From contig JAGAUH010000280.1 in assembly GCA_017620875.1 (NCBI GenBank), positions 1 to 11,775 of the forward strand: DNA of 11,775 nucleotides, in the 5' to 3' direction. A model generated the notes under the pieces. It saw only the letters and a program-made list of their open reading frames with translations. It ran no database searches and was not told the DNA's origin. This document shows, piece by piece, positions 3,103 through 11,775 of the stretch. Made by a program: the position numbers and the translations under genes. The stretch is from Clostridia bacterium (GTDB taxonomy: Bacteria > Bacillota > Clostridia > Christensenellales > Borkfalkiaceae). How positions within the stretch are numbered: the stretch's first letter is position 1; every line of letters starts with the position of its first letter.

Positions 3103-5256
3103 ATGGAAAAGGAAATCGTAATTGCCTTAGCCGGAAACCCCAACTGCGGAAAAACTACGCTTTTTAACGCATTTACGGGTGCAAACCAATACGTTGGTAA
3201 CTGGCCGGGGGTAACGGTTGAAAAAAAAGAAGGTAAACTTAAAAAGCACGAAGGGGTTAAAGTGGCAGACTTGCCTGGTATTTATTCTCTTTCGCCTTAC
3301 ACTTTAGAAGAAGTTGTTGCTAGAGACTATTTGGTAAACGAAAGACCAAACGTAATTTTAAATATAGTAGACGCAACTAACTTAGAGAGAAATTTATATT
3401 TAACAACGCAACTAATAGAACTTGGTATCCCCGTTGTAATTGCGCTTAATATGATGGACTGCATCCGCAAAAACGGTGACAAAATAGACACGGCGGAAAT
3501 TTCTAAAAGGTTTGGGTGTCCTATAGTAGAGATATCCGCGCTTAGACTAGAAGGAATATTCGAAGCGGCAGAAAAATGTATAGAAGTTGCTAAAAACGGA
3601 TATAAAATACCAACGCACTCTTATTCTGGGGCGGTAGAACATGCGCTTGCTCATATAGAAGAAGTAGCATTACACGACATGCAAGAAGATTTACAACGTT
3701 GGTATGCAATAAAGATTTTTGAAAGAGACCAAAAAGCCATAGAGCAATTAGGCTTGTCTAAAGAACTAATCGAGCATATAGAAAAGGATATTGCTTCTGC
3801 CGAGGCAGTACTTGACGACGATAGCGAAAGCATTATCACCAACGAAAGATACGTTTACATTGGCGAACTACTAAAAGGTTGTTACAAAAAAAGGCAAGCG
3901 GGTAAACTAACCGTATCGGATAAAATAGATAGAGCGCTAACAAATCGTTGGGCGGCGTTGCCAATTTTTGCTTGCATAATGTTTTTAGTTTATTGGTTGT
4001 CTATCGGCTCTATCGGAGATTGGACCGTTGGCTTTATGAACGATAAACTTTTTGGCGAGTGGATTATACCAAACGTTACCACTTGGATGGAAAACGCAAA
4101 TTTTGCACCTTGGCTAACTAGTTTAATTGCCGACGGTATTATCGGCGGAGTTGGTGCGGTGCTTGGCTTTGTACCACAAATGCTAATTTTATTCTTCTTA
4201 TTATCTATTTTAGAAGATTGTGGATATATGTCTAGGGTAGCCTTTATTATGGATAGATTATTCCGTAAGTTTGGTTTATCGGGTAAAAGTTTTATACCAA
4301 TGCTAGTTGCAACGGGTTGCGGAGTGCCGGGTATTATGGCTAGCCGTACCATAGAGCAAGATAGAGATAGAAAACTAACTATAATGACTACGGGCTTTAT
4401 ACCTTGCGGTGCAAAAATGCCAATAGTTGGTTTAATTGCAGGTGCGTTGTTTGGCGGAAACGCGTTAGTTGCGGTATCTGCTTACTTTATAGGCGTTGGT
4501 GCAGTAATTATATCAGGAATTATTTTAAAGAAAATAAAAGCCTTTGCAGGTGACGTTGCTCCGTTCGTAATGGAATTGCCACAATATCACTTCCCGGTAG
4601 CAAGCAACATTTTTAGAGCCACTTGGGAAAGGGGTTGGTCTTTTATTAAAAGAGCAGGAACGGTTATTTTATTATCTTCCGTATTAATTTGGGTATTAAA
4701 TAGTTTATCCTTTACGGGAGGATTCCACTACATAACGGAAGAAAGTGGCGGAAGAAGTATTTTAGAATACATAGGCACGGCGTTTGCTTGGTTGTTTAAG
4801 CCACTAGGCTTTGGCAATTGGGAAAGCGCAGTTGCAACCATTTTAGGTCTTGTTGCTAAAGAAGAAGTTGTTTCTACCTTTGGAGTATTAACGGGCACGG
4901 AAGAAGGTGCAGGTTTAAACGAAGCGGTTAAACTGCTAATATTTAACGGTAGCGGACTTGCAGCGTATTCGTTTATGATATTTAACCTACTTTGCGCGCC
5001 TTGTTTTGCCGCAATGGGTGCTATTAAAAGAGAAATGAACAATTGGAAATGGACTGCGTTTGCAATTAGTTATATGTGCGTATTTGCTTATGCAATTAGT
5101 TTTATAGTATATCAATACGGTTGTTTATTTACAGGTACGGGTGCTTTATGGGCAAGGATAGTCGGCTCTATAATTGCAACTGTAATTTTAGGTGTATTAA
5201 TATTCTTATTAGTAAGACCTAACAAATATAAAAATAAAGAGTTAATTAAGGAGTAA
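3103..5256 (+). CDS. feoB: FeoB ferrous iron transport GTPase/permease
   Basis: A 717-residue full-length FeoB, the G-protein-coupled inner-membrane importer of Fe(II). The N-terminal GTPase has all its motifs: G1 GNPNCGKTT (11-19), G2 with the NWPGVTVE threonine (T38), G3 DLPG (56-59), G4 NMMD (116-119) and G5 SAL (145-147). A helical region of about 165-270 fits the GDI-like domain. The membrane part starts near residue 283 and carries the two Gate repeats: ATGCGVPGIMASRT (about 403-416), PCGAKMP (434-440), and the Cys pair CAPC (631-634) near the second Gate. ATG follows AAAAGGAG. The stop overlaps the ribosome binding site of the next gene. A copy of the operator seen at the operon promoter lies immediately upstream, suggesting additional iron control at this gene. 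Confidence 0.97.
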   Translation: MEKEIVIALAGNPNCGKTTLFNAFTGANQYVGNWPGVTVEKKEGKLKKHEGVKVADLPGIYSLSPYTLEEVVARDYLVNERPNVILNIVDATNLERNLYLTTQLIELGIPVVIALNMMDCIRKNGDKIDTAEISKRFGCPIVEISALRLEGIFEAAEKCIEVAKNGYKIPTHSYSGAVEHALAHIEEVALHDMQEDLQRWYAIKIFERDQKAIEQLGLSKELIEHIEKDIASAEAVLDDDSESIITNERYVYIGELLKGCYKKRQAGKLTVSDKIDRALTNRWAALPIFACIMFLVYWLSIGSIGDWTVGFMNDKLFGEWIIPNVTTWMENANFAPWLTSLIADGIIGGVGAVLGFVPQMLILFFLLSILEDCGYMSRVAFIMDRLFRKFGLSGKSFIPMLVATGCGVPGIMASRTIEQDRDRKLTIMTTGFIPCGAKMPIVGLIAGALFGGNALVAVSAYFIGVGAVIISGIILKKIKAFAGDVAPFVMELPQYHFPVASNIFRATWERGWSFIKRAGTVILLSSVLIWVLNSLSFTGGFHYITEESGGRSILEYIGTAFAWLFKPLGFGNWESAVATILGLVAKEEVVSTFGVLTGTEEGAGLNEAVKLLIFNGSGLAAYSFMIFNLLCAPCFAAMGAIKREMNNWKWTAFAISYMCVFAYAISFIVYQYGCLFTGTGALWARIVGSIIATVILGVLIFLLVRPNKYKNKELIKE

Positions 5257-5258
5257 GT

Positions 5259-5465
5259 ATGAATTGGGAAACGATTGTAGGACTAATAGTTGTAATTAGT
5301 TTAGTAATTGCAATAATAGTTAAGAGCATAATAGATAAAAAGAAAGGCAAATCTAGTTGTTCTTGCGGTGGAAATTGTAGTGCGTGTAACGTATGCCACC
5401 CAGACGCATCTAAAGAGTTAAAAGATGCCGAACAATGCGATTGCGAAAATAATAGTAAAAATTAG
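5259..5465 (+). CDS. FeoB-associated Cys-rich membrane protein
   Basis: A 68-residue protein starting 2 bp after feoB, with AAGGAG lying in the feoB 3' end. Residues 4-24 (ETIVGLIVVISLVIAIIVKSI) form one transmembrane helix, then KKKGK marks the cytoplasmic side. The tail has seven cysteines, in CSCGGNCSACNVC (34-46) and CDC (60-62). This layout is that of the small FeoB-associated Cys-rich membrane protein family found after feoB in Firmicutes, sometimes viewed as a FeoC-like accessory. Its exact role, metal handling or FeoB stabilisation, is not established. Position, length and Cys pattern all agree. Confidence 0.92.
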   Translation: MNWETIVGLIVVISLVIAIIVKSIIDKKKGKSSCSCGGNCSACNVCHPDASKELKDAEQCDCENNSKN

Positions 5466-5558
5466 TAAGCCAAAACACGTACAAATACGAAAAGGGCAAG
5501 CCTAAAACTAGGCTTGCCCTTTTTGTTATTATAGCAAAAAATTTTAAGTTTTGGCTTA
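5466..5558. repeat. Perfect 11-bp inverted repeats flanking the feo terminator
   Basis: TAAGCCAAAAC (5466-5476, just after the Cys-rich protein stop) and GTTTTGGCTTA (5548-5558) are exact inverted repeats enclosing the terminator hairpin. Function unknown; may be remains of a small palindromic element. Confidence 0.5.
5490..5524 (+). terminator. Intrinsic terminator of the feo operon
   Basis: A 15-bp perfect stem AAAAGGGCAAGCCTA / TAGGCTTGCCCTTTT (5490-5504 with 5509-5523), tetraloop AAAC, ending in a T tract. Its A/T ends could also allow leftward termination. Confidence 0.93.
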
Positions 5559-5596
5559 AAATCGACTTATAGGTGGAGTTTTGTAAGTTTTTAAAA
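5557..5596. repeat. Small palindromic repeat, copy A
   Basis: TAAAATCGACTTA at the left end and TAAGTTTTTAAAA (5584-5596) at the right end form an inverted repeat with a TCG bulge. The left 12 nt, TAAAATCGACTT, recur exactly at 9960-9971 in copy B, whose right end is CAAGTTTAAAA. Both copies sit just after a terminator. Confidence 0.5.
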
Positions 5597-5610
5597 GGCT
5601 TTTTTATAAA
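5581..5610 (+). promoter_or_regulatory. Candidate promoter of the macrodomain operon
   Basis: TTGTAA (5581-5586), an 18-bp spacer and TATAAA (5605-5610) lie 65 bp before the ATG. A second possible -10, TATAAT at 5642-5647, has no good -35. Both are sequence predictions only. Confidence 0.35.
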
Positions 5611-5674
5611 TATTTAGGAATTTATTTTTTTGTTGGTTATTTATAATTATCGACTAAAACAAAAGGAGAAAGTT

Positions 5675-6823
5675 ATGCCGTTACAAATTTTACAAGATAA
5701 TATTATAGGGGTAAAGTGCGACGCACTTGTTAATCCTACAAACAAAAAACTTAAAGCGGGTGGTGGGCTAGACGAATTAGTTCACTACTTAGCAGGGGAA
5801 GAATTAGATAAGGTTTGCGCTATAATAGGCGAGATAGAATTGGGGCAAGCGGTTATTACGCCTGCTTTTAATTTAGATTGCAATTTTATTATACATACCG
5901 TTGGACCTACTTGGCAAGGTGGACTTTATAAAGAAGAAGAAACGCTAATATCTTGTTATAAAGAGTGTTTAAAACTAGCCGAAGGTTGCAAATGTAATAG
6001 CGTTGCTTTTCCGCTAATATCATCCGGCAGATACGGATATCCTAAAGATAAAGTTTTAAAAGTGGCGGTTGATACTATAAAAGAGTTTTTACAAAGTAGC
6101 GAACTTATGGTTTATTTGGTTGTGCATAATAAAGACGCGTACGAAATAAACGAGCAACTAGATAAAGGCTTAACGGATTTTATTATAGACACTTTTAAAA
6201 AACCTAAACTTATTAGCCGACCTAGTACGGAAGAAAGAAAAGGCGTTTTTGAGTGTCCTGCTCCAAAAGAAATGGAAAGGCTTATTAAGTCAAAAACTAA
6301 AAAAGAAGTTCCTTTACAAGCCGTAGACTGCTATTTCGAAGAAGAGGGCTTGTCTTTTCAAGAGAGTTATAACGCTATTGGGACAAGCGTTAATAAAGAG
6401 ATAGAGTTTCCGCCAAGTTATTATAAAACTCAACCTTTGCCAACTTTTAAAGAAGAAGATAATTTAAAAAGGTTTATGTATAAAGGGTTTGCTTTAACGC
6501 TTTTTGAACTAATAGATAAAAAGGGGCTAAAGGACGTAGAGTGCTATAAAAGGGCAAACGTAAGTAGGCAAACTTGGTATAAAATTGTAAACGACAGAAA
6601 TTATACACCAAACAAAAACACCATAATTTCTTTTGCAATAGCATTGCAATTAGACATTATGGACACGCAAAAACTACTTGCCACCGCAGGGTTTATTTTG
6701 TCTAAAAGTAGTTTGTTCGACGTTATTATTATGTATTGCATAGTAAATAAAATTTACGACGTTTTTGATATAGATTCTATCTTGTTTAAATACGAACAAC
6801 CAACGCTATTTTCTAAAGAATAA
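5675..6823 (+). CDS. Macrodomain (ADP-ribose binding/hydrolase) protein with C-terminal putative HTH
   Basis: A 382-residue two-domain protein. The ATG at 5675 is chosen because AAAGGAG lies 6 nt upstream; an in-frame TTG 45 bp earlier has no such site. Residues 1-170 form a macrodomain with its hallmarks: DALVNPTN (16-23), AGGGLDELVHYLAG (28-41, with the Asp at 33 that is catalytic in hydrolytic macrodomains) and ISSGRYGYP (115-123), the phosphate-binding loop. It should bind ADP-ribose and may remove it from proteins or nucleic acid, or deacetylate O-acetyl-ADP-ribose. A polar linker (about 180-260) leads to residues 264-375, which resemble an XRE-like helix-turn-helix (KRANVSRQTWYKIVNDRNYT at 292-311, then helices). 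It could therefore be an ADP-ribose-responsive regulator. First gene of a cassette with vWA and ADP-ribosylglycohydrolase genes. The macrodomain call is firm; the HTH is inferred. Confidence 0.88.
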   Translation: MPLQILQDNIIGVKCDALVNPTNKKLKAGGGLDELVHYLAGEELDKVCAIIGEIELGQAVITPAFNLDCNFIIHTVGPTWQGGLYKEEETLISCYKECLKLAEGCKCNSVAFPLISSGRYGYPKDKVLKVAVDTIKEFLQSSELMVYLVVHNKDAYEINEQLDKGLTDFIIDTFKKPKLISRPSTEERKGVFECPAPKEMERLIKSKTKKEVPLQAVDCYFEEEGLSFQESYNAIGTSVNKEIEFPPSYYKTQPLPTFKEEDNLKRFMYKGFALTLFELIDKKGLKDVECYKRANVSRQTWYKIVNDRNYTPNKNTIISFAIALQLDIMDTQKLLATAGFILSKSSLFDVIIMYCIVNKIYDVFDIDSILFKYEQPTLFSKE

Positions 6824-6840
6824 AATTGTCAATTGCCAAT

Positions 6841-6870
6841 TTACCAAATAAAAAAATAAAGGTGTATACT
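6841..6870 (+). promoter_or_regulatory. Candidate internal promoter before the vWA gene
   Basis: TTACCA (6841-6846), an 18-bp spacer and TATACT (6865-6870) lie in the 79-bp gap between the macrodomain and vWA genes. No terminator is visible in the gap, so readthrough from the first gene is also expected. Confidence 0.35.
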
Positions 6871-6902
6871 AAAACTACAATATTTTTAGGAGGTAAATAA
6901 AA

Positions 6903-7547
6903 ATGAAAAATAAAGAACAGATTACGGAAATCGTTTTTATTATAGATAAAAGCGGTTCTATGCACGGATTAGAAAAGGATACTATCGGCGGATTTAATTC
7001 CGTTATAGAAAAACAAAAAAAGCAAAGCGGAAAGGTTTTGGTTTCTTTAGTGCTATTTAACAGTAGTTTTCACGTAGTGTACGACAGGGCAGATTTGCAA
7101 CAAGTAAATCCACTAACGGAAAACGATTATAGGGTTGGTGGCTCAACTGCGTTGTTAGATGCGTTAGGTGGGGCAATAAAACATATTGGCAACGTACACA
7201 AATACGCCAGAAAAGAAGACGTGCCTACAACAACCACTTTTATTATCACTACCGACGGGTTAGAAAATTCTTCTAGGACGTACGATAGCGAACAGGTAAA
7301 AAGTATGGTAAAACGCCAAACCGAAAAATACGGTTGGGAATTTGTTTTTATGGCTGCCAATATAGACGCGGTAGAAACCGCTAAAAGATACGGCATAAGA
7401 GAGGATAGGGCGGTAAACTACGATTATTCGCCACAAGGCGTTGCTCATTGTTATTGCGCTATGGACGAAATTGTGGCTTGCAGAAGAACGGGCGCTACTC
7501 TAGATAAAAGCACTTTTAAAAACAAAGTGAATCCAAACAAAAAGTAA
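6903..7547 (+). CDS. Stand-alone von Willebrand factor A (vWA) domain protein
   Basis: A 214-residue cytoplasmic-looking protein made of a single vWA fold, with no signal peptide. The metal-ion-dependent adhesion site is complete: DKSGS (D15, S17, S19), the Thr in GGSTALLDAL (T82) and the Asp in TTDGLENSS (D118). It should therefore bind Mg or Mn and a protein ligand. The C-terminal third (EFVFMAANIDAVETAKRYGI at 146-165 and onwards) continues the Rossmann-like fold typical of bacterial vWA proteins of the TerY-like type. A strong AGGAGG lies 8 nt before the ATG. In bacteria such single-domain vWA proteins usually work as scaffolds or assembly factors with partners encoded next door. Here these are two ADP-ribose enzymes and a membrane peptide, which makes a role in an ADP-ribose-linked stress or defence complex plausible but unproven. 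Confidence 0.88.
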   Translation: MKNKEQITEIVFIIDKSGSMHGLEKDTIGGFNSVIEKQKKQSGKVLVSLVLFNSSFHVVYDRADLQQVNPLTENDYRVGGSTALLDALGGAIKHIGNVHKYARKEDVPTTTTFIITTDGLENSSRTYDSEQVKSMVKRQTEKYGWEFVFMAANIDAVETAKRYGIREDRAVNYDYSPQGVAHCYCAMDEIVACRRTGATLDKSTFKNKVNPNKK

Positions 7548-7561
7548 TTAGGGGTTAGGGT

Positions 7562-7702
7562 ATGGTTTATTTTTTATTAATGGTTTTTATAGTTACTTTA
7601 ATATGTGGGTTTATTTTTCATAATAACGTTGTGATAATTATAGGTGCTATAGGTACTGCTATTTTCGTTTTGTTATACTTAATTTTTTCGTGGCAGTGCT
7701 AA
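7562..7702 (+). CDS. Small membrane protein, apparently cut short by a frameshift
   Basis: A 46-residue, highly hydrophobic peptide (MVYFLLMVFIVTLICGFIFH, a short NN turn, then VVIIIGAIGTAIFVLLYLIF) with two predicted transmembrane helices. It starts 14 bp after the vWA stop behind AGGGG. It ends SWQC, TAA at 7700. Reading on in the -1 frame after the T6 run at 7683-7688 instead gives LIFFVAVLIKHKKLEQEDKE and then DDFFD, stopping at 7753-7755. That would complete the second helix with a positive anchor and an acidic cytoplasmic tail and end 17 bp before the next gene. The whole gene is therefore probably 7562-7755 with one base lost (T7 to T6), or the shift is made during expression. The family is not recognised. 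Its place in the operon suggests it anchors the vWA/ADP-ribose module at the membrane. Confidence 0.55.
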   Translation: MVYFLLMVFIVTLICGFIFHNNVVIIIGAIGTAIFVLLYLIFSWQC

Positions 7703-7772
7703 TAAAGCATAAAAAACTAGAACAAGAAGATAAAGAAGACGATTTTTTTGATTAAAACTTTAGGGGGTAATA

Positions 7773-8702
7773 ATGACGAGAGAGTTTAACGAAGTTTTAA
7801 AAGCTGTAATAATAGGGCACGCCGTTGCCGACGCGTTAGGCGTGCCAGTAGAGTTTAAAGATAGAGAGTATTTATCTTTGCACCCTATAACCGATATGGT
7901 GGGATACGGCACTTACAATATGCCAAAAGGTAGTTGGTCGGACGATACAAGTATGGCTATATGCTCGTTATCGGCTTTAAATAATGGCAAAATAAACTTT
8001 GATAAAATAATGCATAACTTTTGTTTGTGGTATTATAATGGGGAGTTTACTCCTACGGGCGTAACCTTTGACGTTGGCAGTACTTGTAGTATGGCAATAG
8101 AAAACTATTATAACAATTATAAAACTTGGAAAGAGTGCGGACTTGGTACCGAAAATTCTAATGGTAACGGCTCTTTAATGCGTATTTATCCTTTTGTGTT
8201 TTACACTTATAAACTACAAACCGATTTAAAAACTAAAATAGATATTATAGAACTTGCTAGTGGTTTAACCCACGCACACAAGCGCAGTAAAATTGCTTGC
8301 GGAATTTATGCTTTTATACTTTGGGAACTAATAGGTAATCCTTGCAAAAATAGTATTTATATTGGTTTACAAAAGGCAAAAGAATATTATTTAAACGAAT
8401 TAGAAGGTGCGTATTTTTATAGGATTTTTGCCGACAATTTTGCAAGTTTATCGCCTAATTTAATAAATAGTAGCGGTTACGTTGTAGACAGTTTAGAAGC
8501 GAGTATTTGGTGTTTACTAAATTCTACAAACTATAAAACTTGCGTGTTAAAAGCGGTAAACCTGGGGGAAGATACCGATAGTATTGGAGCAATAGCAGGT
8601 AGCCTTGCAGGAGCTTTATACGGATATAACGATATCCCTTTAGAGTGGAAACGCAGTTTAATAAAAAAAGACTATTTAGAGAGTTTTAGTAAAAATTTAT
8701 AA
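7773..8702 (+). CDS. ADP-ribosylglycohydrolase (DraG/ARH family)
   Basis: A 309-residue enzyme of the all-helical, dinuclear-Mg ADP-ribosylhydrolase family, which removes ADP-ribose from proteins or other substrates. Family marks run in order: GHAVADALGVPVEF (15-28), GSWSDDTSM (53-61, with metal ligands D57, D58 and T59), GNGSLMRIYP (the substrate loop), THAHKRSKIAC, and NLGEDTDSIGAIAGSLAGALYG (from residue 263, ligands D267 and D269). All metal residues are intact, so it should be active, and the length fits the family. ATG follows AGGGGG. It closes the macrodomain-vWA-membrane protein cassette. Since it is chemically distinct from the macrodomain, the cassette holds two ADP-ribose-handling activities but no recognisable ADP-ribosyltransferase. 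The substrate is unknown. Confidence 0.93.
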   Translation: MTREFNEVLKAVIIGHAVADALGVPVEFKDREYLSLHPITDMVGYGTYNMPKGSWSDDTSMAICSLSALNNGKINFDKIMHNFCLWYYNGEFTPTGVTFDVGSTCSMAIENYYNNYKTWKECGLGTENSNGNGSLMRIYPFVFYTYKLQTDLKTKIDIIELASGLTHAHKRSKIACGIYAFILWELIGNPCKNSIYIGLQKAKEYYLNELEGAYFYRIFADNFASLSPNLINSSGYVVDSLEASIWCLLNSTNYKTCVLKAVNLGEDTDSIGAIAGSLAGALYGYNDIPLEWKRSLIKKDYLESFSKNL

Positions 8703-8704
8703 AT

Positions 8705-8732
8705 AAAAAAGCAATCCTATTTTTAGGATTGC
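8705..8732 (-). terminator. Intrinsic terminator of the XRE gene (leftward)
   Basis: GCAATCCTA / TAGGATTGC (8711-8719 with 8724-8732) forms a 9-bp stem with a TTTT loop. On the minus strand it is followed by six Ts (8710-8705). Rightward there is no T tract, so it stops the ADP-ribose cassette less well. It sits between two convergent genes. Confidence 0.75.
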
Positions 8733-8748
8733 ATAAGAATATAAAATT

Positions 8749-8958
8749 TTAAAGATTTTCGTCTAAAAGATATTCTACTGAAACGGCAAAATAACGAGAA
8801 ATACTTAAAAGAGTGTCTAAATCCGGTTCTCTTTTACCTATTTCCCAAAAACTAATCGTTTGGTTGCAAACGTTAAAAATTTCCCCAAGTTTTCTTTGAG
8901 ATAAATTATGTTCTAATCGTAATTCTTTTAATCGTTTTCCAAATGTATTATTTTTCAT
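8749..8958 (-). CDS. XRE-family (Cro/C1-type) transcriptional repressor
   Basis: A 69-residue single-domain HTH protein. FGKRLKELRLEHNLSQRKLG (residues 6-25), VCNQTISFWEIGKREPDLDT (30-49) and LLSISRYFAVSVEYLL (50-65) are the five-helix XRE fold with the recognition helix near NQTISFWE. It lies divergently from two unrecognised genes, with two matching dyads (8969-8985 and 8999-9015) in between, so it almost certainly represses the rightward promoter and itself. There is no Shine-Dalgarno sequence before its ATG, and a -10-like TAAACT (8970-8965) would start transcription at or near the ATG, so the message may be leaderless. The gene is small and lacks any dimerisation or peptidase domain, as in minimal phage-type or toxin-antitoxin-type regulators. 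Confidence 0.9.
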   Translation of the reverse strand: MKNNTFGKRLKELRLEHNLSQRKLGEIFNVCNQTISFWEIGKREPDLDTLLSISRYFAVSVEYLLDENL

Positions 8959-8968
8959 ACGTTTAGTT

Positions 8969-8985
8969 TACTACAAAAAGTAGGA
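8969..8985. promoter_or_regulatory. XRE operator 1 (imperfect)
   Basis: TACTACAAAAAGTAGGA is a dyad with one arm diverged (TACTAC versus TCCTAC). It is centred 30 bp from operator 2 and covers the region just upstream of the XRE start codon, consistent with autoregulation. Confidence 0.7.
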
Positions 8986-8992
8986 TTTATTG

Positions 8993-9021
8993 TTGACTTC
9001 CTACAAAATGTAGGATATAAT
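8993..9021 (+). promoter_or_regulatory. Rightward promoter with the operator filling its spacer
   Basis: TTGACT (8993-8998), a 17-bp spacer (8999-9015) and TATAAT (9016-9021). The spacer is exactly operator 2, TCCTACA-AAA-TGTAGGA, so repressor binding would exclude RNA polymerase. It drives the genes at 9053 and 9418. Confidence 0.9.
8999..9015. promoter_or_regulatory. XRE operator 2 (perfect dyad)
   Basis: TCCTACA-AAA-TGTAGGA is a perfect 7-bp dyad with a 3-nt centre, equal to the whole promoter spacer. It is the best candidate binding site of the adjacent XRE protein. Confidence 0.85.
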
Positions 9022-9052
9022 AAAAATATAAATAAATTATAGGAGTAAAAAA

Positions 9053-9403
9053 ATGACAAATGCAGAATTTTTAAACAAATATTTTGGGACAAATTATAAA
9101 CAATGGATGAGATGTACCTATAACGTTTCCAAAGATACGGTTGTTTGGATGGTTAATATAGATGGCTCTGTTGCTATGGGGTGGTCTAACGTATTGTTGC
9201 CAGACGGAAAAACTATCGAAGAAAGGTTTGTTTGGGATTTGTCTAGACAAATACCGCCACATAGACATATCGATTACAATTATAGAATTGTAGTAGACAA
9301 AAGTAAAAATTATAAGGTGTTAGGGTTCTTTAAATACGATAGAGAAAATAGCGACGAAAGAACTTATCGTGTTTGGCATAAAGTAAAAGACGTGGAATTA
9401 TAA
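9053..9403 (+). CDS. Unrecognised 116-residue protein, first gene of the XRE-controlled operon
   Basis: I do not recognise this protein. It is soluble, with no signal peptide or membrane helix, and rich in Trp and Tyr. Features visible are an N-terminal helix (NAEFLNKYFGTNYKQWMR), a beta-rich middle with WMVNIDGSVAMGWSNV (32-47), and a C-terminal motif YKVLGFFKYDRENS...YRVWHKV (87-111). That motif resembles the YVFLGLYK...KVWVKTF motif of the next gene product, so both may share a small beta-rich domain. AGGAG precedes the ATG at 7-nt spacing. It is driven by the TTGACT/TATAAT promoter containing the XRE operator, so it is probably silent until repression is lifted. It could be an effector, toxin or nucleic-acid-binding protein; none of these can be shown here. 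Confidence 0.75.
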   Translation: MTNAEFLNKYFGTNYKQWMRCTYNVSKDTVVWMVNIDGSVAMGWSNVLLPDGKTIEERFVWDLSRQIPPHRHIDYNYRIVVDKSKNYKVLGFFKYDRENSDERTYRVWHKVKDVEL

Positions 9404-9417
9404 TTTGGAGGTGTAAA

Positions 9418-9918
9418 ATGAGATTAAAAAGGGTTGTAAAAAATCCACTTGTAAAAAATTTAGAATTTAGTTACGGAACAAAAGCAATAGATATTTACGA
9501 TAGTTGTTGTGAAGTGTTTAATTGGTCTAGTTGGGAAAGAAACAATTTTGGTATGCAAAAACCATTATGGAAGGACGACGTTACACCAGAAGGATACGAC
9601 GCTTGGTTTTTGTGCCATAATAACTTTACAAACACAACTAATTTTAATAAATATAACAAAATAGATTTAGTAGGTAATAAGATAGAAGAAATATGGTTTG
9701 CAAGAGATTTTGGGTTGTACGAACACAATAATAAAAGAGTTACTTTTGCAAAAATGGAAGGGGATTACGTTTTTTTGGGACTGTATAAAGTTGTTTCTGT
9801 AAAAGAAGAAATTCTTAGTTATAATTTAATAGTAAATGGTAAAGTCGTAAAAGGTATGGGAGAAAAAGTTTGGGTAAAAACTTTTAAACAAATATCTGAT
9901 ACGTACAAACAAAAATAA
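9418..9918 (+). CDS. Unrecognised 166-residue protein, second gene of the XRE-controlled operon
   Basis: I do not recognise this protein. It begins 14 bp after the previous gene behind a strong TTGGAGG, so it is cotranscribed. It is soluble and basic at its N-terminus (MRLKRVVKNPLVKN). The middle has aromatic and Asp-rich stretches (NWSSWERNNFGMQKPLWKDD at 35-54, GYDAWFLCHNN at 59-69). The C-terminal half carries IEEIWFARD (89-97), RVTFAKMEGDYVFLGLYKVV (107-126) and EKVWVKTFKQI (149-159). The FAK..GDYVFLG.Y pattern reminds me of PUA/SRA-like beta-barrel domains seen in some modified-base recognition proteins, but that is only a visual resemblance. A strong terminator follows. Together with the XRE gene it forms a compact three-gene accessory unit of unknown purpose. 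Confidence 0.75.
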   Translation: MRLKRVVKNPLVKNLEFSYGTKAIDIYDSCCEVFNWSSWERNNFGMQKPLWKDDVTPEGYDAWFLCHNNFTNTTNFNKYNKIDLVGNKIEEIWFARDFGLYEHNNKRVTFAKMEGDYVFLGLYKVVSVKEEILSYNLIVNGKVVKGMGEKVWVKTFKQISDTYKQK

Positions 9919-10057: not shown

Positions 10058-10113
10058 TTTATTATAACTTATTGGGAGAAAACAAAAATGTTAATTTAAA
10101 AAAGTGGTAAATC

Positions 10114-10170
10114 TTGTAAAAAATGTGTAAAAGTAGCATTTTTTTATGTAAAACACGCATTTTTGTACAA
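10114..10170. repeat. 57-bp imperfect inverted repeat in the gene-free region
   Basis: TTGTAAAAAATGTGT (10114-10128) pairs imperfectly with ACACGCATTTTTGTACAA (10153-10170), and eight Ts follow about 11 nt later (10181-10188). It could be a weak attenuator of transcripts started at about 10064. AT-rich, so stability is doubtful. Confidence 0.3.
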
Positions 10171-10195
10171 AAGGGCTAATTTTTTTTATTTAAAA

Positions 10196-10224
10196 TTGAC
10201 ACGTGGCGTATATAATTGTATAAT
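10196..10224 (+). promoter_or_regulatory. Consensus promoter for the secreted phosphodiesterase
   Basis: TTGACA (10196-10201), a 17-bp spacer and TATAAT (10219-10224) match consensus perfectly, about 95 bp before the ATG at 10319. An 11-nt element ATTGTATAATA containing this -10 is repeated 21 bp downstream (10236-10246). Confidence 0.85.
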
Positions 10225-10241
10225 AATATATACTCATTGTA

Positions 10242-10273
10242 TAATAGTATAGTATTCGTTTATTATACTATTA
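10242..10273 (+). other. Leader hairpin in the phosphodiesterase 5' UTR
   Basis: TAATAGTATAGTA (10242-10254) pairs with TATTATACTATTA (10261-10273) with one G-T pair around a TTCGTT loop. It lies in the predicted 5' UTR, has no T tract after it, and probably affects mRNA stability or marks an operator-like dyad. Confidence 0.4.
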
Positions 10274-10318
10274 AAAAAAGTGTATTTGAAAGATAAAAAT
10301 TTTTTTTGGAGAATTGTT

Positions 10319-11775
10319 ATGAGTTTAAAAAGGAAAATAGCAATTACAATTTTAGCACTTTGCTTTATATTTGCTACGCTTTTAGGTGTAGTTGGCTATA
10401 AAGCAAACACAACTTTAACCGTTTACGCTGCAAACGAACTAACGGAAACTGAGTATTACGCTCAATTAACCCATTATGGTAGTTCTGGTACAAATGATGC
10501 GAATAAGATAGCAAATTCCAAAAACCGTGCAAGAATAAGTTTCTCTATCAAAATGGCGACAGGTACTAATATTACTTTTAAAGGTGATACATCTGTTTAT
10601 AAGTGGGCAGTAAACGAAATGTCTGCTCCTTATGCAATTTGGGGTTCTGTTTTGCTAGATACTGGTTGGAAAACGGATAATTCAACTTATGCTATAACTC
10701 AAGATTGCTACCCTACAATAGTAATAACGAGAAATGATAGTGCAGTATTAACAGATGATGAACTTTACGCTATAAAGGATTGGTTTACGGTTAGCGGAAC
10801 AAAAGTTTCGCCAACTACAACTTCTACTAGCGGAAGTCTTACCACGGATGAATACAATTCTCAAGTGGCAAGTTTTGGTAGTCTTCCTTGGCAAAATACA
10901 CTAAGAAGAGCAAGGCTTACTATTGCAATAAGATTACGTAAAGGTGCAGTGGTTACTTTTAAAGGCAATACTTCTACTTATAATTGGGGCGTTATAGAAA
11001 CAAATAATCCTAGCCAATTTGTAGAAGGTGCTTATTTAGATAGTGGATGGCTAGGGACTGCCACTTCTTACACAACTAAATTAGACGGAGTGTATTTAGT
11101 GTTGACAATTAAAGGTGCTACGGATGACAGTGCCGCCGTAAATTTATCAAGCACTGACCTAACATCTATACATTCGTTATTTAGTATAACCGCAACCAAA
11201 TTAGGTGGCGATACCATTGCCGACGTAGAGCAAAAAGACTATGCGATAAATTCTATTGCTCATAGGGGAGTTCCGTATTACGCACCAGAAAACACTTTAC
11301 CTGCTTACGAATTGGCAGCAGACCAAGGTTTTAAAATGGTAGAGTGTGATATTTCGTTTACTAGCGACGGAGAGCCCGTATTATTACACGACGATACGAT
11401 AGCCCGTACTAGTAATGGTAGCGGTAACGTTAGTGATATGACAACAGAACAACTAAAAACGTACGACTTTGGTAGTTGGATGGGACACGAATATGCAGAA
11501 ACAAAAATCCCTACGCTAGCAGAATTTTTAGATTGTTGTATAACTAACAATTTGCATCCGTATATCGAACTAAAGGGAACTATAACGGATGAACAAGCAC
11601 AAAAGTTGATAGACGTAGTAACAAACAAAGGCATGCTAAAAAAGGTTACTTGGATATCTTACGGGACTGAAAACTTGGCTAAAATTGCTACTTTAGATAG
11701 CACGGCTAGGGTAGGTCGCGTTGCAAGTAATAGTACTAGTTTTACAATTACGGAAGATTGGTTAGAAACACAATA
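10319..11775 (+). CDS. Secreted glycerophosphodiester phosphodiesterase with duplicated N-terminal domain (3' truncated)
   Basis: The frame is open from ATG at 10319 (TGGAGA 6 nt upstream) to the window end, 485 residues seen. A signal peptide is clear: SLKRK, a hydrophobic core at 7-24, and likely cleavage after TVYA (37). Residues about 41-162 and 174-294 are two copies of an unrecognised domain: compare TFKGDTSVYKWAV (86-98) with TFKGNTSTYNWGV (213-225), then DTGW/DSGW. They may bind cell-wall or host polymer. From about 310 a GDPD domain begins: IAHRG (313-317), APENTLPAYELA (322-333), VECDISFTSDG (341-351, E342 and D344 as metal ligands) and LLHDDTIART (355-364). These are all the catalytic residues of glycerophosphodiesterases, which release glycerol-3-phosphate from lipid-derived or teichoic acid glycerophosphodiesters outside the cell. 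The last part of the barrel and any C-terminal anchor are outside the window. Confidence 0.92.
   Translation, partial: MSLKRKIAITILALCFIFATLLGVVGYKANTTLTVYAANELTETEYYAQLTHYGSSGTNDANKIANSKNRARISFSIKMATGTNITFKGDTSVYKWAVNEMSAPYAIWGSVLLDTGWKTDNSTYAITQDCYPTIVITRNDSAVLTDDELYAIKDWFTVSGTKVSPTTTSTSGSLTTDEYNSQVASFGSLPWQNTLRRARLTIAIRLRKGAVVTFKGNTSTYNWGVIETNNPSQFVEGAYLDSGWLGTATSYTTKLDGVYLVLTIKGATDDSAAVNLSSTDLTSIHSLFSITATKLGGDTIADVEQKDYAINSIAHRGVPYYAPENTLPAYELAADQGFKMVECDISFTSDGEPVLLHDDTIARTSNGSGNVSDMTTEQLKTYDFGSWMGHEYAETKIPTLAEFLDCCITNNLHPYIELKGTITDEQAQKLIDVVTNKGMLKKVTWISYGTENLAKIATLDSTARVGRVASNSTSFTITEDWLETQ

Follow-up and report, generated by a model that had tools for sequence, protein, structure and literature searches.

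The closest described counterparts of the locus presented here are the ARG-centred systems of actinobacteria, planctomycetes and proteobacteria, in which ARG forms the core and which, in the sections of the survey dealing with them, are presented as a predicted, as yet untested host counter to viral ADP-ribosylation (PMC9503650). According to the same sections, a phosphatase is coupled in little over 55% of these systems, a Nudix- or WYL-helix-turn-helix (HTH) regulator, proposed to be a repressor, occurs in more than 42%, and the companions comprise HD phosphatase, SseB, von Willebrand factor A (vWA), restriction nucleases and Macro, of which vWA and SseB, like TY-Chap, are predicted peptide-binding chaperones often located near ARG (PMC9503650). 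In this study, we analysed a stretch of 11,775 bases, hereafter the window, which makes up an entire contig (C96) of a Clostridia draft genome (1.28 Mb in 291 contigs, 58% complete). It carries a macrodomain-HTH gene (MH), a vWA gene (V), a hydrophobic open reading frame (ORF) of 46 amino acids (aa) and an ADP-ribosylglycohydrolase gene (ARH). All four ORFs are present and intact on the + strand, as reported in an earlier interpretation made from the letters of this DNA (the sequence-only reading); the gaps measure 79 bp (MH-V), 14 bp (V-46-aa ORF) and 70 bp (46-aa ORF-ARH). A fixed four-gene operon was rejected, ARH and the putative membrane peptide of 46 aa being optional and V having its own promoter. 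Judged from the comparison of loci, the conserved unit is MH, then a 17-bp palindrome, then V, with ARH as recurrent optional member, and it appears, by a modest degree of confidence, that MH is a one-component transcription factor which responds to an ADP-ribose ligand by turning on V (and ARH).

The genome collection contains at least 563 stretches encoding all or part of an MH relative, the best-scoring 80 of which served as locus set; rates from this set are those of the best scorers and hence of no random sample, and a survey of 201 genomes of the same family, many of them incomplete drafts, is less biased. In 68 of the 80 loci, V (counted on stop-to-stop ORFs) lies on the same strand within 2 kb of MH, with 67 cases downstream and 50 within 300 bp. 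In the family survey, V, called with the vWA alignment at E ≤ 1e-30, was found in 20 of the 201 genomes, and 18 of these 20 have MH or an HTH-only gene of the MH type within 2.3 kb on the same strand (exceptions G043 and G096; in G100 and G173 V stands ahead of the HTH gene). These counts bear out the recurrent macrodomain-HTH/vWA linkage that had been anticipated.

For ARH the anticipated linkage held in part. An ARH gene stands no more than 3 kb downstream of MH in 14 of the 80 loci (L061, L062, L064, L065, L076, L079, L080, L088, L096, L098, L115, L116, L123 and L137, the last in two pieces) and occurs within 5 kb upstream in none of the 80, 67 of which include at least 3 kb of upstream sequence; however, ARH (PF03747), present in 74 of the 201 family genomes, stands beside V in only two of the 20 V-bearing ones, those of the window and G012. 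Among the ARH-bearing loci the gene orders MH-V-ARH and MH-ARH-V both occur. Two ARH subfamilies take the same position, one window-like with 35–54% identity to the window ARH (L039, L080, L096) and one shorter and distant with 21–29% (alignments of more than 150 columns), which argues that an activity, rather than one particular ARH gene, is what is linked. A separate ARH-V pair (1359–2165 and 703–1362) was seen in L071, about 7 kb from MH and on the opposite strand.

At some loci the palindromic site precedes ARH. On the Selenomonas plasmid L195 and the viral contigs L210 and L212, ARH and V each have their own copy, arranged as MH, site, ARH, site, V, and a site precedes ARH also in L061, L062, L076, L088, L098 and L123. 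In the window no such site stands before ARH, which follows V without a + strand terminator-like site separating the two. As far as gene and site order tell, ARH belongs to the MH regulon. The supposed lack of an internal terminator likewise stood for the + strand between the genes, and not for the MH coding region, where a 5-pair match (6677–6690) forms the sole + strand terminator-like site inside the cassette; from 5200 to 9500, six terminator-like sites were found against 2.2 expected. That four unrelated genes came to stand side by side by chance is highly improbable in view of the MH-V linkage, the shared operator described below and the recurrence of ARH downstream (14 of 80) but not upstream, arguments which count for MH, V and ARH and not for the 46-aa ORF; what speaks for chance is that ARH and the 46-aa ORF are unlinked in most relatives.

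Comparison of the loci further revealed the operator. In the 68 of 80 loci with V or ARH called downstream, the gap between MH and the first of these genes measures 80–130 bp in 42 and 60–160 bp in 48, and at most loci a palindrome is present in the gap to V or ARH. Its commonest form is GTCGC-N7-GCGAC followed by C; the group of the window shows an AT-rich palindrome, which starts with GTCAA or GTAAA and ends with TTGAC or TTTAC. The 80 loci, 1,108,089 bases in total, contain 52 copies of the strict form GTCGC-N7-GCGACC, of which 46 precede V by no more than 250 bp; the remaining six stand ahead of ARH (one), MH (L096), an HD gene (L106) and a 117-aa ORF (L077) or follow just after MH without a called gene (L094, L130). 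A looser form stands ahead of 51 of 70 V genes, where base shuffles gave a mean of 0.135 and at most 2. Across 31 whole genomes, the 13-letter form TGTCGC-N7-GCGACCA was found at 29 sites in 25 genomes (reversed control: 5), where it is the rarity of other sites that matters, since these genomes had been picked for cassettes showing the GTCGC form and the 25 of 31 are no independent confirmation. By matching letters, 25 of the 29 sites were assigned to cassettes; two of the other four are in G223 and one each in G206 and in G204, there 1.8 kb ahead of MH. No operator site besides that at 6828 was found in the draft sequence of the source genome. In the genome of L125, a second protein with an HTH that by eye looks MH-type (L175) is followed by a similar site and a gene for a 475-aa protein; further regulators with an MH-type HTH may each control their own neighbour.

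The half-sites of the palindrome change together with the recognition helix of MH. After dropping the duplicates L032, L037 and L041, 100 distinct loci remained, 81 with a recognisable site; removing L110 (helix unparsed) and adding L191, L193 and L195 gave a covariation set of 83, in which helix and operator class agree in 80. A DRKLF-type helix goes with GTCGC/GCGAC in 54 loci, a VS(K/R)QTW helix with the AT-rich site in 17, the window included, and a D(K/R)KTF helix with GTCTC/GCGAC in nine, one of them in reverse order. The three misfits are L039 with an intermediate helix as well as L052 and L056, which have an HTH without macrodomain and no recognisable site. In the search for these sites the outer GT and ACC were fixed and palindromes preferred, and the letters distinguishing the classes were left free. 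On the macrodomain tree, the helix/operator classes change at least 6–7 times by parsimony. Because half-sites and helix change together in this way, MH very probably binds the palindrome.

The operator stands at a fixed distance from the promoter of V. Together, promoter and operator of V span 6828–6870; V having its own promoter-operator, MH and V therefore need not share one transcript. The sequence-only reading had counted separate transcripts against the cassette: V does have its own conserved promoter, but this very promoter is evidence for control of V by MH. In 73 of 81 loci the -10 box begins exactly 20 bp past the 18-letter site, and in three, among them the window, 19 bp past it; without L052 and L056, whose sites are doubtful and which were excluded from the hairpin, spacer-identity and -35 analyses, these counts are 72 and 2 of 79. 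Over 77 loci, identity amounts to 0.67 in the site and 0.81 in the -10 box and to 0.34 in the spacer, where 0.27 is expected from composition. A -35 match of at least 4/6 at 16–18 bp is present in one of 78 promoters, against about 12% expected in shuffles, and the centre of the palindrome would come to lie near -42 of the V promoter. Class II activators, e.g., lambda cI at PRM, sit near -42. With a good -10 box, mostly no -35 at normal spacing and an operator centred near -42, it is likely that MH activates the V promoter.

In relatives (e.g., L061, L082, L089), a strong hairpin was observed between the -10 box and the start of V or ARH, often beginning inside the -10 box. Such leader hairpins reach z < -2 in 51 of 79 loci and z < -1.5 together with a T-run in 27 of 79, and are absent in the window. 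Transcripts reading through from MH would carry this terminator-like hairpin, and those from the promoter would be without most of its first arm.

Some features of the promoters tell against activation. The sole promoter reaching 4/6 at -35 is that of the window itself (TTACCA, 18 bp), the invariable letters of the operator account for part of the deficit in -35 matches, and regulators of the XRE type are often repressors. As a repressor, MH would cover the -35 region and keep RNA polymerase out until freed from the palindrome by an ADP-ribose ligand; for this speaks that the operator occupies the place of a -35, that promoters of the AT-rich class have a TTGACA-like hexamer at 20 bp with 5/6 matches in 12 of 17, and that Nudix or WYL repressors were proposed for ARG-centred systems in the sections describing these (PMC9503650). 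We regard repression, the main rival to activation, as rather unlikely, however, for the exact distance from operator to -10, kept despite a diverged spacer, and the 77 of 78 promoters below 4/6 at -35 fit activation better.

The sensing function is suggested by the N-terminal part of MH. Its start was set to the ATG at 5675 and not to the TTG at 5630 because M1 and P2 are invariant among aligned homologues. The Macro domain is matched in Pfam at 1e-34 and the HTH by HTH_26 at 0.0028, under the Pfam cut-off; the AlphaFold2 model comprises a confident macrodomain, a low-confidence linker (207–253) and a helical domain (261–372) with a block predicted local distance difference test (pLDDT) score of 86–97. 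According to the alignments, the MacroD-type residues N20, N23, D33 and H37 are all present in MH, and N23, D33 and H37 are jointly kept in 47 of 55 macrodomains; we take the N, D and H residues to have the catalytic roles of the MacroD type. The best relatives are DR_2288, MACROD2 and YmdB in a profile search of the PDB with the macrodomain, and E. coli YmdB and MACROD2 in a fold comparison (Foldseek) with the model. From these likenesses we infer, with fair rather than high confidence, that the macrodomain senses an ADP-ribose ligand. In L042 and L049, MH relatives adjoining V have a strongly degenerate macrodomain (a weak match in L042, by eye in L049), possibly marking a shift from enzyme to pure sensor.

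Taken together, the following mechanism can be proposed. The MacroD-type macrodomain of MH would bind ADP-ribose, free or as part of an ADP-ribosylated ligand, and perhaps hydrolyse it, and the C-terminal HTH would bind the 17-bp palindrome shortly past the end of the MH gene, near -42 of the V promoter. A rising ADP-ribosylation or ADP-ribose signal would then cause MH to activate V, plus ARH where present. V would be a metal-dependent vWA scaffold, presumably protein- or peptide-binding, and the output of V and ARH could bind and remove the ADP-ribose marks. With a macrodomain joined to an HTH, a matching recognition helix and a short, sharply defined operator that is rare elsewhere in the genomes searched, the question how bacteria notice ADP-ribosylation of their own molecules, to our knowledge a largely open one, becomes accessible using a single purified protein and a short piece of DNA. 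As at least 563 stretches encode all or part of an MH relative and relatives lie on phages and mobile elements, the proposal would account for a gene pair that recurs, so far without a name, in gut bacteria.

Several observations weigh against this reading. V is not in place in 12 of the 80 loci, only five of which have contig ends within 1.6 kb; among the 12, V lies on the opposite strand in L102, an HD-domain gene replaces it in L106, and ARH is present in L076 and in L080, the latter one of the five near contig ends. No ARH is found in 66 of the 80 loci, and 19 of the 100 distinct loci are without a recognisable site. When one mismatch was allowed in the source genome, the reversed control gave two matches, equal to the two of the operator (one place, both strands). 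Independent switches of the helix/operator class are few: for the class of the window there are three supported pairs, all agreeing (p 0.25), and for the GTCTC class two independent pairs, of which one agrees and one shows no difference, in both classes too few for significance. Finally, at least one of N23, D33 and H37 is lost in 8 of 55 macrodomains, and L043, L048 and L059 have an HTH without macrodomain, yet V and a site of the matching class; ADP-ribose sensing is thus not universal among MH-type regulators.

Regarding the biological purpose, the genomic settings of the relatives are informative. The phage genome record PV036457 carries MH, a gene for a 151-aa protein, the site, V and a gene for a metal-dependent phosphohydrolase. 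In the viral collection, the contigs of which may be prophage or other mobile DNA, 13 of 20 loci have HTH plus macrodomain (the one in L218 is cut off and that in L220 split over two ORFs), and V is present in eight of these 13, ARH in six and the site in eight; in Vescimonas L192, the cassette adjoins mobC and a relaxase gene. Companion genes were called by a simple, crude gene caller, which missed the MH of L094, and are thus to be read as examples and not as rates. Several relatives have genes of the phosphatase type (HD, PHP, calcineurin-like), with HD_4 in L065, L106, L115 and L134, in L065 as an SseB+HD_4 protein after MH-V-ARH, and PHP in L216; none was found among the seven window proteins scanned. 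Companions of the defence or conflict type are GmrSD (L040), HNH (L043) and a WapI-like immunity protein (L098). HD phosphatases, SseB, vWA and restriction nucleases also figure in the companion list of the ARG-centred systems (PMC9503650). Further companions are Exo_endo_phos (L079, L212), HhH-GPD (L212), SIMPL (L079) and a Y-family polymerase, in L208 with a YolD-like protein just below the cut-off and in L121 without a scanned YolD-like protein. In L121, a gene of the chloramphenicol acetyltransferase family (10071–10697) stands directly after MH, ahead of the Y-family polymerase gene. In L039, MH and V are separated by a gene for a 250-aa protein that looked like a DNA glycosylase; it had no Pfam match, and this likeness was therefore not used.

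A response to ADP-ribosylation by phage, toxin or defence enzymes, hence a role in conflict, is a purpose that we put forward tentatively. An alternative is housekeeping of NAD+ and ADP-ribose in an NrtR-like circuit with no role in conflict: ADP-ribose-sensing Nudix-HTH regulators are known, as the sections of the survey on such regulators state (PMC9503650), and by eye the window cassette follows seemingly chromosomal Feo-like genes, and most genes listed downstream at the loci compared are, by eye, non-defence. We consider this unlikely, as inspection by eye picked out no gene of NAD biosynthesis in that downstream listing or among the 30 scanned proteins of relatives, the distribution is patchy (V in a tenth of the family genomes) with variable inserted genes, and the cassette is found on a phage genome, 13 viral-collection contigs and a plasmid and beside mobilisation genes. 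The same mobile settings could also reflect a stress or DNA-repair module, in which ADP-ribose is just an alarm signal and the variable cargo the real output. The polymerase, Exo_endo_phos, HhH-GPD, GmrSD and HNH companions, mobC and relaxase beside the cassette in L192 and an SRA-like gene not far from V, as in the window and L042, would suit such a module; every type of cargo was seen in few loci, however, and the operator is followed as a rule by V instead of cargo (46 of 52). We consider such a module unlikely, slightly more so than housekeeping.

The coordinates of the features in the window are compiled in Table 1.

Table 1. Features of the window discussed in the text, with positions counted from its first base.
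Feature	Position	Strand	Description	Basis
Terminator-like hairpin	5490..5523	scored on -	upstream of MH	
MH	5675..6823	+	382 aa; MacroD-type macrodomain 1 to ~175, linker, C-terminal HTH 261-372	Pfam, alignments, model, Foldseek
Operator	6828..6844	.	17-bp palindrome GTCAATTGCCAATTTAC, then CA	comparison of loci
-10 box of V promoter	6865..6870	+	TATACT, 19 bp after the 18-letter site	
Ribosome-binding site of V	6888..6893	+	AGGAGG	sequence
V	6903..7547	+	stand-alone vWA protein, 214 aa, complete metal site	Pfam VWA 4.7e-06, alignments
Hydrophobic ORF	7562..7702	+	46 aa, putative gene	sequence not conserved
ARH	7773..8702	+	309 aa; ADP_ribosyl_GH PF03747 9.3e-69	metal motifs intact
SRA-like protein	9053..9403	+	116 aa, PF18491 1.6e-12; tentative cassette associate	

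The complete metal site that had been recognised in V consists of D15, S17, S19, T82 and D118, all kept in 15 of 15 aligned homologues, and that of ARH, of the binuclear kind, lies in the motifs SDDTS and GEDTDS; the residue roles in both are those which we assume from the vWA and ARH families. The MacroD-type residues of MH and the ARH motifs confirm two ADP-ribose-processing folds whose active-site motifs are intact. ARH has the domain of the ARH/DraG family, and the nearest NCBIfam model, Tri1 (NF041672), scores 203.8 bits against an equivalog cut-off of 490. For V, a PDB profile search with the vWA alignment gave no match at E 0.01. An apparent family of antisense genes overlapping V was discarded as an artefact, its members being, by position, reverse-strand vWA ORFs from the simple gene caller.

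The 46-aa ORF is a putative gene only, no match to it having been obtained in the 28 family loci searched. Proteins of 110–116 aa with hydrophobic stretches stand directly after V in L036, L037 and L043, with no match to the 46-aa ORF. Beyond ARH, the SRA-like gene of the window has a counterpart directly after V in one relative (L042). Such genes were found in 13 of the 201 family genomes, with a second copy at G000:C242. The next protein (166 aa, 9418–9918) had no Pfam match at 0.1. A small XRE gene (8749–8958, - strand) is divergent from the SRA-like gene, and the palindromes CTACAAAAAGTAG and CCTACAAAATGTAGG between them are perhaps operators of the XRE gene.

With respect to described defence systems, PADLOC 2.0.0 assigned no family to MH, V, the 46-aa ORF and ARH or to three MH relatives, and TerD, TerC and kinases had no match among the seven window proteins scanned, the search for these being confined to the window. 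Neither a macrodomain-HTH regulator nor a macrodomain-vWA-ARH unit was encountered in the literature searched, which was open-access, with most subscription papers outside its scope. It is possible, at slightly less than even odds, that MH founds a class of macrodomain transcription activators. This would be a widespread and mobile regulon responsive to ADP-ribose, present in Clostridia as well as in their phages and equipped with an operator of its own; a single ADP-ribose-recognising fold would gauge the signal, and its clearance would fall to recruited ARH enzymes and a vWA scaffold.

Compared with single components of known systems, residues 1 to ~165 of MH resemble the MacroD-type macrodomains of E. 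coli YmdB, human MACROD1/2 and Oceanobacillus iheyensis in sequence, fold and catalytic residues, but MH has a DNA-binding domain fused on and scores below the equivalog cut-offs of the NCBIfam macrodomain models that it matches. DarTG and Macro-sirtuin pairs have a macrodomain eraser in common with MH; unlike in these, no family of DarT-like or other ADP-ribosyltransferases or of sirtuins was matched among the seven window proteins and the 30 proteins of relatives scanned, which agrees with the absence of an ADP-ribosyltransferase claimed from the letters. NrtR, a Nudix-HTH protein responsive to ADP-ribose, likewise combines an ADP-ribose-handling domain with an HTH, as the survey states where it treats this regulator (PMC9503650), whereas sensing domain and targets (V/ARH) of MH are different.

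With the ARG-centred systems, as far as the sections cited above portray them, the window shares an ARH without coupled transferase or sirtuin among its seven proteins, a one-component HTH regulator and a nearby predicted chaperone, here the vWA protein and in L065 SseB. Differences lie in the core, which is V (68 of 80 loci) with ARH as the optional part (14 of 80), in the sensor, a MacroD-type domain fused to an HTH instead of Nudix or WYL, in the hosts, which are mostly labelled Clostridia, and in a defined operator with probable activator geometry. By analogy, the MH-V(-ARH) set would thus work in a way that resembles the ARG-centred systems, as a variant and not as a member, because ARG is not its core and its sensor is neither Nudix nor WYL.

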